A DNA stretch of 24,204 nt, taken from positions 1 through 24,204 of IMG/VR virus record IMGVR_UViG_3300045999_001868; one strand, given 5' to 3'. A program made the position numbers and the translations under genes. Positions 3,476 to 21,287 of the stretch are shown one piece after another (the stretch's first letter is position 1; every line of letters starts with the position of its first letter). The notes beneath the pieces were generated by a model, which saw only the letters and a list, made by a program, of their open reading frames with translations, did not search any database and was not told the origin of the DNA. The DNA is from a virus.

Positions 3476-4473
3476 AGTACAATCCTTTGTGTTAGAAACA
3501 TGTACGGCAGGCTGTAATTTCTCTGTTCATAATGATACTGAGCCATATCAAGTGCAGTTATTAAACTTACACTCCAACTGGTCAGAGTTTCATCTGCTAC
3601 ATCAAATACATAAACCTGATTGTACTTGTCAATAACCACAAATTTGCACATTATCTGGTAATCTTTTTCATCTTCAGTAAGATTTTCAAAAACAAGTCTT
3701 CCATATATGGCCATCTGCAGCCAATAGTTATAGAAGTCAATGGTCTCTTTGAAGTCTGAAATAGTTTTAGAAGTTGTCTTCAGATCACATATCACCACCT
3801 CTTTTCTTTCATCATCAATCTTGTAATAATCCACAATACCTTTTAGGCCAAATGAATAATCTTTCAGTTTCTGAATCATTAAGGGTTTTTCAACAAAGCT
3901 TTTGGCACCATCAAGTTCAAAGTCTGTCTGAGAGGCATTGAATAACTCCATTACATCTTTGTTTTCTTTGATGATATCAACCTGCTCTTGGCACTTTGTT
4001 AATGTATCCTGATCAATAACATCAAGCTTACTTGTATTCAGATACTTCCAGTAAACATCATTATCCTGGGTCTGGATCTTTTCAAGTCTCTTTGAATCTT
4101 CCTTCAATGTCTGATAAAGATTCTCTGATTCTAATGCATCTAGTATTAACTTCTGATGATTGGGATCCGTGGATAGTAATGACTCAGGTTTAAATGGCTG
4201 GTCCTTTAATAAATAAAGTACCTTCTTAACCGAATCAGTGGGAACTTTTGAAGGAATGATGTTAAACTTATTCTTTAAGTTACCTGGTTCAAATAACAGA
4301 CAATGAATAAGTTTGCCTTCTATTAGATGCTTATCTGTTGACTCTTCTCTCTTACCAAGAACATAGTCCCGGTAGAAGAGAGTTGGAGAAAACATGAGCT
4401 TGTTTATGGATGAATAACTAAACTGGAATTCTTTGGAATAGAACTCCTCTTCTTTTGTGAAATCTCTTTTCAT
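3472..4473 (-). CDS. PD-(D/E)XK superfamily nuclease, exonuclease/Cas4-like
   Basis: This is probably a DNA exonuclease that makes single-stranded ends for recombination. The N-terminus has YSSINKLMFSPTLFYRDYV and EGKLIHCLLFEP (about residues 19-64), typical of DUF3799-type phage PD-(D/E)XK proteins. The catalytic core reads GIVDYY (D215), then DLKT (D230, K232), followed by the QxxxY motif LQMAIYG (Q253, Y257). All expected catalytic residues are present in 333 aa, a normal length. It is coupled by ATGA overlaps to both neighbours. The Sak4-like ATPase and SSB-like protein elsewhere in the window are the partners such nucleases usually work with. The superfamily is secure; the direction of cutting and the partner are inferred. 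Confidence 0.88.
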   Translation of the reverse strand: MKRDFTKEEEFYSKEFQFSYSSINKLMFSPTLFYRDYVLGKREESTDKHLIEGKLIHCLLFEPGNLKNKFNIIPSKVPTDSVKKVLYLLKDQPFKPESLLSTDPNHQKLILDALESENLYQTLKEDSKRLEKIQTQDNDVYWKYLNTSKLDVIDQDTLTKCQEQVDIIKENKDVMELFNASQTDFELDGAKSFVEKPLMIQKLKDYSFGLKGIVDYYKIDDERKEVVICDLKTTSKTISDFKETIDFYNYWLQMAIYGRLVFENLTEDEKDYQIMCKFVVIDKYNQVYVFDVADETLTSWSVSLITALDMAQYHYEQRNYSLPYMFLTQRIVL

Positions 4474-20891: not shown

Positions 20892-20906
20892 GATTTTAAA
20901 TATTAG

Positions 20907-20980
20907 TGATTCCACCAGGATTTGAACCTGGAACCTACAGCTTAGAAGGCTGTTGCTCTATCCAATTGAGCTATGGAATC
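20907..20980 (-). tRNA. tRNA-Arg (anticodon UCU)
   Basis: This is a standard 74-nt cloverleaf. The acceptor is GATTCCA/TGGAATC, the D stem GCTC/GAGC, the anticodon stem ACAGC/GCTGT with loop CTTCTAA, and the T arm CCAGG-TTCAAAT-CCTGG, with discriminator A. The anticodon TCT reads AGA codons, which suit an AT-rich phage. CCA is not encoded. It begins right at the end of the structured RNA region and was probably made from the same transcript. Confidence 0.95.
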
Positions 20981-21274
20981 ATGGTCCCGTTTTCTCCTCA
21001 CATTTAGCCCAACCACCAGTGAGACAATGATTGGATTTTGATTACAGAAGCTGTTTCCAGCCGTTACCACGGGCAAACTGAATCAGTGGTCAGGACAGGA
21101 CTCGAACCTGTAAGGCACTACCCATTGTAGCCACCTGACCATATTGCTTGTCTTTCCAAGCTGTCACTATTTTCCGGTTGTCTGACTATTGTTTAGCCAC
21201 TCATTCTCTCATACCGTTTGAGGGGAGCATCTACCTGACTACTTGCATCCATTCCATATACAGGGGAAAATACT
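20981..21274 (-). ncRNA. Structured non-coding RNA region with pseudoknot, upstream of tRNA-Arg
   Basis: This is the only stretch of about 300 bp without a gene. No open frame of note is present on either strand. The minus-strand RNA has many local folds: GCTTG/CAAGC (21161-21157 with 21150-21146), GCTG-GAAA-CAGC with a GNRA loop (21061-21050), and CCGT/ACGG (21072-21061). There is also a likely H-type pseudoknot: stem 1 pairs 21034-21028 with 21015-21009, and stem 2 pairs 21023-21019, inside its loop, with 21001-20997. It contains the anticodon-less tRNA-like fold at 21087-21140. A promoter box lies at 21280-21287. The class is not recognised; the edges are estimates. Confidence 0.55.
21087..21140 (-). 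ncRNA. tRNA-like structure lacking the anticodon arm (54 nt)
   Basis: A perfect 7-bp acceptor stem (GGTCAGG/CCTGACC) is followed by a D-arm-like segment closed by GGC/GCC, with a D-loop-type AATGGGTA. A perfect T arm ACAGG-TTCGAGT-CCTGT and discriminator A complete it. Only two bases separate the D arm from the T arm, so there is no anticodon stem or loop. The T-loop bases (TTCGA) and the D-loop GG needed to form the tRNA elbow are kept. It resembles the tRNA-like domain of tmRNA or other tRNA mimics in layout, though it is contiguous, unlike tmRNA. It could also be a tRNA that lost its anticodon arm. Confidence 0.7.
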
Positions 21275-21279
21275 TTGTG

Positions 21280-21287
21280 CAAAATTA
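21280..21287 (-). promoter_or_regulatory. -7 promoter box TAATTTTG for the RNA unit
   Basis: TAATTTTG on the minus strand matches TAnnTTTG and overlaps the stop codon of the Myb-like gene. Transcription would start near 21274 and cover the structured RNA and tRNA-Arg. No -33 element is clear. Confidence 0.4.

Follow-up and report, generated by a model that had tools for sequence, protein, structure and literature searches.

The stretch of DNA analysed here (the window, 24,204 nt) carries on its minus strand an ordinary tRNA-Arg gene, which is preceded by several RNA modules. Among these is a 54-nt tRNA-like RNA without an anticodon arm, abbreviated TLS below for the class as well as for the window copy. 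The positions of all features are collected in Table 1. Genes for a DNA polymerase, a primase, a DnaB-like helicase and a helicase lie near the TLS. The helicase, which is common to 23 IMG/VR loci, matches proteins of Flavobacterium phages, Bacteroides phages and uncultured gut phages, and from these matches we infer that the window phage is Crassvirales-like.

Table 1. Features of the region between the tRNA-Arg gene and the promoter box
Feature	Position	Strand	Basis or remark
tRNA-Arg (TCT), ordinary neighbour	20906..20980	minus	ARAGORN, Rfam
3' segment, TLS to tRNA-Arg	20981..21086	minus	sequence only
GNRA hairpin in 3' segment	21050-21061	minus	as above
Candidate H-type pseudoknot	21028-21034/21009-21015 + 21019-21023/20997-21001	minus	as above
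TLS, 54 nt	21087..21140	minus	tool scans, fold, same 54-mer in L390/L391/L395
TLS acceptor	21134-21140/21088-21094	minus	7/7 pairs
TLS D-like arm	21114-21133	minus	GGG-containing loop
TLS two-base joint replacing anticodon arm	21112-21113	minus	
TLS T arm	21095-21111	minus	stem 5/5, standard loop TTCGAGT
TLS A73	21087	minus	
Leader hairpin UGACAGC-UU-GGAAAGAC-AA-GC	21146..21166	minus	ends 5 nt before TLS; >120 IMG/VR stretches
Domain X (ATTTTCCCC...GGAAAATAG), ~105 nt, structured	21167..21271	minus	9 homologous loci
TAATTTTG, Bacteroidota-type -7 box at upstream ORF end	21280..21287	minus	consensus match

The sequence-only reading had treated 294 nt of this region as one structured RNA. This view was not upheld, and the region is instead composed of separate modules, namely domain X with the UGACA hairpin, the TLS, and the 3' leader of the tRNA-Arg, each of which occurs independently elsewhere. 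The stretch 21146-21271 is a separate conserved module that had been overlooked. Nested folding of the whole 304-nt region was no better than that of shuffled sequences (z 0.49). The promoter box that had been placed just upstream is real: TAATTTTG fits the Bacteroidota -7 consensus TAnnTTTG and may drive transcription of the entire unit. A homology search with the upstream 120-aa ORF returned no relatives. In the 3' segment, the crossing helices CCAATCA/TGGTTGG and CTCAC/GTGAG can form, and a pseudoknot is plausible there; no homologue of segment 20981-21086 was found. Crossing helices are also possible in the tRNA-Arg leader of the related contig L002 (3839-3911), the sequence of which is different. 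It was further observed that the conserved loop of domain X (21230-21243) includes AGTCAGG, the usual 7-base 5' acceptor strand of TLS, so that base pairing between this loop and the TLS 3' acceptor strand is conceivable.

L002 is the nearest relative (protein 92% identical) and carries a different odd tRNA-like gene and a tRNA-Arg at the same site. The 3' half of the TLS and the hairpin motif were both absent from L002 and from six other records of the phage family, implying that the cassette was either gained or repeatedly lost. Gain is favoured because the exact 54-mer recurs elsewhere, and the cassette appears to move between phages. An ordinary tRNA at this site in related phages had been named as a sign of decay. 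No relative has a tRNA derived from the TLS gene: close relatives are without the gene, and the L390-type phages described below retain the same arm-less form. In L002, the stretch 3665-3752 is called as tRNA-Leu(TAG) by ARAGORN, but its D arm deviates from the norm, as does its junction with the anticodon stem, and the stretch may itself be a TLS. An additional element, GTGTTGTTCCCTTGAGAAAGGAATG...ACAACAC followed by a short hairpin, recurs between phage tRNAs (L002:3755-3838, L101, L212, L213, L216, L399), with no Rfam match seen in the loci scanned.

The 54-nt RNA and its recurrence

Read on the minus strand (21140-21087), the 54-mer is GGTCAGG-TGGCTACAATGGGTAGTGCC-TT-ACAGG TTCGAGT CCTGT-CCTGACC-A. 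This reading bears out the anticodon-less tRNA-like fold reported previously, with seven of seven acceptor pairs, five of five T-stem pairs, 2 nt between the arms and A73. It can be observed that the acceptor stem, the D and T arms and the elbow nucleotides of a canonical tRNA are present, whereas the anticodon arm is reduced to two bases and the RF00005/ARAGORN threshold is not reached. The 54-mer is unable to decode. ARAGORN made the tRNA-Arg its sole call. The suggested covariance-model search of Rfam was run as well, and at the gathering threshold only the tRNA-Arg was matched in the window, the TLS remaining unmatched; in a permissive scan the top match of the 54-mer was tRNA-Sec (14.4 bits, E 5.3). 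The fold is not attributed to chance because the same 54-mer is present in another phage lineage and the pairing of acceptor and T arm is kept across the family. The window copy is the shortest form of a phage TLS class.

Two scans, one for short forms and the other for the D-arm sequence TGGCTACAATGGGTAGTGCC alone, both retrieved the contigs L390, L391 and L395. Their copy, AGTCAGGTGGCTACAATGGGTAGTGCCTTACAGGTTCGAATCCTGTCCTGACTA, is identical to the window 54-mer at 51 of 54 positions, and the three differences from window to L390 type are G1 to A, C72 to T and one T-loop base. G1-C72 is accordingly replaced by A1-U72, which constitutes one compensatory pair of the kind that the sequence-only reading had hoped to see in the acceptor. 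Being near-copies of each other, the three contigs amount to a single lineage, and the exact 54-mer is therefore known from two lineages only. In the L390 lineage, a phage with terminase-like and glycosyltransferase genes, the TLS is intergenic and begins 6 nt after the Bacteroidota promoter box TAACTTTG. On its 3' side a second, imperfect tRNA-like stretch is followed by an intrinsic terminator, and no tRNAs were called on the three contigs. Furthermore, a pattern leaving the acceptor free retrieved a second arm-less subfamily on eight contigs (AGTCAGG TGGCGGAAGGGTAAACGC ACTA-NNNNN-AGCA ACAGG...). In three of the eight, AGTAAGG/CCTTACT stands in place of AGTCAGG/CCTGACT, acceptor pair 4 being changed on both sides.

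Arms and centres of the class across phages

The IMG/VR search pattern was GTCAGGTGGCN{3,9}GGYARNCGC, and counts for the class are lower bounds: at least 138 distinct TLS copies on at least 98 contigs were obtained from all fetched loci. The carriers are mainly Bacteroidota phages, judged by promoter type, with Crassvirales-like phages among them. The layout comprises conserved acceptor, D and T arms and, between the D and T arms, a hypervariable centre of 2 to ~230 nt. Pairing was tested in 125 members for which the 5' acceptor strand, D arm and T-loop start served as the only anchors, with the 3' side left free. In this set all seven acceptor pairs were formed in 110 members and all five T-stem pairs in 118, and A73 was found in 104. 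The pairs that are free to vary (1-72, 49-65, 50-64, 51-63) were paired more than in any of 300 shuffles. Because most acceptor pairs never vary, acceptor covariation rests on few pairs; the D-like arm showed none.

Such retention of the stems, A73 and elbow across 125 members argues against a decaying tRNA that lost its anticodon arm by deletion and persists among clustered phage tRNAs by chance alone. Decay would suit the position of the TLS beside the tRNA-Arg and the other odd tRNA-like gene at the same site in L002, and phage tRNA arrays do include degenerate tRNAs. It is nevertheless improbable, given that the 54-mer recurs with a compensatory pair in another lineage, where it stands alone with its own promoter and terminator, and that the second, independent arm-less subfamily has a compensatory acceptor change of its own. 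Promoters are found more widely in the class: 15 of the 138 TLS have TAnnTTTG at a distance of 3-9 nt on their 5' side, compared with 1% of control positions and one of 92 ordinary tRNAs.

An anticodon arm was fitted by ARAGORN in 32 of 118 TLS, against 26 (range 21-32) with shuffled centres. Anticodon arms are no commoner than after shuffling, so most of the class is without a real one; a few true tRNAs share the class arms. When introns were allowed, 106 of the 118 were fitted, compared with 86-100 for shuffled centres, as might be expected of split or intron-bearing tRNAs that acquire the anticodon arm by splicing or in trans. The excess is small, however, the window copy has two bases only, and neither a splicing motif nor a conserved insertion site was seen, so that this origin is scarcely credible.

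The centres differ even where the flanks are alike. Between L158/L211 and L237, the flanks are 91% identical for 250 nt to either side, with conserved arms, whereas the centres (64/66 nt and 40 nt) are 42-44% identical, which is near unrelated. Likewise, L172 and L195 have 94% identical flanks and near unrelated centres of 70 and 57 nt. Judged from these pairs, the centre acts as an exchangeable cassette. Conserved arms with interchangeable centres between such flanks would be expected of a natural tRNA scaffold with RNA cargo that varies, whether regulatory, antisense or decoy, in which case the window copy would be an empty scaffold. A minority of centres also fit crossing helices better than shuffles do (24 against 6.5 expected). 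Against the cargo, the nested structure of the centres does not exceed that of shuffles, no target was found, and both the window and the L390 lineage are without cargo, which leaves this explanation doubtful.

A Bacteroidota host origin of the scaffold was rejected: in a sample of 296 genomes from this phylum, taken around a Sediminibacterium genome, a single genome contained the pattern, namely the Sediminibacterium genome, in which a TLS is present. BLAST against annotated phages returned pieces of ordinary tRNAs only, with no isolate holding most of a TLS. The 735-kb phage LR756501 was also dismissed as a carrier, the fetched region containing an ordinary tRNA-Leu and other tRNAs. Comparison across phages supports well a real TLS class that is conserved, mobile and structure-constrained, with promoters and a cassette-like centre.

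Leader hairpin and domain X

The leader hairpin has the consensus UGACAGC-NN-GGAAAGAC-NN-GC, the window copy reading TGACAGC-TT-GGAAAGAC-AA-GC. The search motif TGACAGCNNGGAAAGACNNGC matched more than 120 IMG/VR stretches (a lower bound; for example L047, L058, L102 and L121). Pair 8-17 is standard in 109 of 109 distinct copies, in the forms GC, TA, CG, AT and TG, compared with 43% when shuffled, and pair 7-18 is also standard in all 109. The carriers are phages of widely differing base composition, in which the hairpin precedes many gene types and lies on their sense strand. It was likewise seen 18-36 nt before the start codons of protein genes, and L029 (4125-4512, minus) contains five copies in tandem, four of them spaced 78 nt. 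The hairpin module is a second unnamed RNA family, strongly covarying across very diverse phages. Possible roles are those of a signal for processing or antitermination, or of a ribozyme component; the general Rfam models gave no ribozyme match for the module.

Domain X has nine other copies in IMG/VR, always joined to the leader hairpin and then followed by different tRNAs or TLS, and in domain X with the hairpin both-sided changes occur at six of 30 consensus pairs. Several domains, domain X among them, are found ahead of the leader hairpin. A domain shared upstream of all leader hairpins was considered and rejected, since several unrelated clusters were obtained, in which a helix ending at -1 was only slightly enriched. 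TLS retrieved through the hairpin alone, with the acceptor sequence free, have many different acceptors, their seven pairs being imposed by the search construction.

Of the 32 hairpins that are followed by a tRNA or TLS within 40 nt, 24 have its 5' end 4-5 nt further on, whereas any tRNA or TLS start falls within 40 nt of random positions in 3 of 885. The window TLS might thus only mark processing sites, the TLS and the leader hairpin together recruiting RNase P and 3' enzymes to a polycistronic non-coding transcript with the 54-mer as a by-product. The arrangement of L152 (1-3500; ~4 kb without convincing genes), where approximately nine TLS are interspersed with tRNAs and with ornate spacers, agrees with such marking. 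Nevertheless, free-standing promoter-TLS units without a nearby tRNA exist in L390, L391 and L395, and the hypervariable centres would be left unexplained; by-product status is therefore rather unlikely.

One possible identity of the hairpin was discarded, and a second appears unlikely. No hairpin copy with fewer than 4 mismatches was present in the HK022 genome, which removes the HK022 put antiterminator RNA as parent. Theta ribozymes, which are HDV-like, located at tRNA 3' ends in Bacteroidota phages and have a probable role in processing (PMC10879173), resemble the hairpin module as structured RNAs beside tRNAs in these phages; the module lies on the wrong side, however, 4-5 nt upstream of tRNA or TLS 5' ends.

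Proposed role and relation to known RNAs

The 54-mer is probably a functional, free-standing phage small RNA, that is, a minimal TLS processed by tRNA enzymes and binding a partner that recognises acceptor and elbow. In the window, it would be transcribed from the TAATTTTG promoter within the unit domain X - leader hairpin - TLS - 3' leader - tRNA-Arg, while in other phages the TLS would start at its own promoter. Subsequently, host tRNA enzymes would excise it by RNase P cleavage at 21140/21141 and 3' trimming or RNase Z, followed by CCA addition. RNase P and CCA-adding enzymes need no more than an acceptor with a T arm and a D-T elbow, and recognition by some synthetases is independent of the anticodon. 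The TLS may then occupy or recruit a factor specific for acceptor and elbow, which is the most likely kind of partner because nothing else is left in the 54-mer. Candidates are RNase P, the CCA enzyme, EF-Tu, an anticodon-ignoring synthetase or a tRNA-targeting defence nuclease. We infer processing, a binding partner and a benefit to the phage in this sense. The chief competing readings are the marking of processing sites and the cargo scaffold, empty in the window. If the proposed role is true, phages make a common RNA class which annotation discards as failed tRNAs. The TLS would then be a natural tRNA scaffold and a direct probe of host factors that read only acceptor and elbow, and the question would arise why phages need many TLS with different centres.

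More tentatively, the class may form a phage cassette system of anticodon-less tRNA mimics, with a constant acceptor-elbow scaffold, an exchangeable centre, often its own promoter and arms-race-like evolution, the window copy being the bare scaffold. The RNAs could then act as decoy or specificity RNAs against host tRNA-targeting defences or tRNA enzymes.

The window and the fetched loci were scanned with all 4227 Rfam families, under the gathering threshold as well as permissive ones, and matches were obtained only to tRNA and, in L111, to tmRNA. No covariance-model match to GOLLD or ROOL was obtained with these families, none to bacterial Y RNA (YrlA), and, for the window, none to tmRNA with an mRNA-like domain. 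The earlier proposal of a tRNA-mimicking phage RNA of no known class is supported by the lack of an Rfam match, the compensatory acceptor change and the promoters in relatives. A description of the TLS class was not found in the literature, where coverage of subscription papers and bioRxiv was incomplete; on the basis of Rfam 15 and this incomplete search, the class is previously undescribed.

Canonical tRNA (RF00005), with the type II Leu/Ser D arm, shares with the TLS a 7-bp acceptor, GG in the D loop, a TTCRA T arm and A73, but in the TLS the anticodon arm is missing and the centre is hypervariable. tmRNA (RF00023) similarly has a tRNA-like domain without an anticodon stem, and a further likeness lies in the candidate pseudoknots of the TLS gene neighbourhood and, statistically, of some relatives. 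In contrast to tmRNA, the halves of the window TLS are adjacent, with 22 nt between acceptor and T arm, and no tag frame is evident. In the synthetic tRNA scaffold for recombinant RNA, the anticodon arm is exchanged for arbitrary RNA and the acceptor and elbow are retained; that scaffold is engineered, whereas the TLS is natural and occurs in phages, with promoters of its own. Viruses that mimic tRNA without decoding are represented by the 3' tRNA-like structures of plant viruses and the tRNA-miRNA transcripts of MHV68. The former are the 3' ends of RNA viruses and the latter are herpesvirus pol III transcripts, whereas the phage TLS is a free-standing RNA of DNA phages. In GC-rich phages (L095:2800-2860, L027, L063, L069), arm-less tRNA-like RNAs were also observed that differ in D arm and acceptor, implying that loss of the anticodon arm is not limited to the GTCAGG family.
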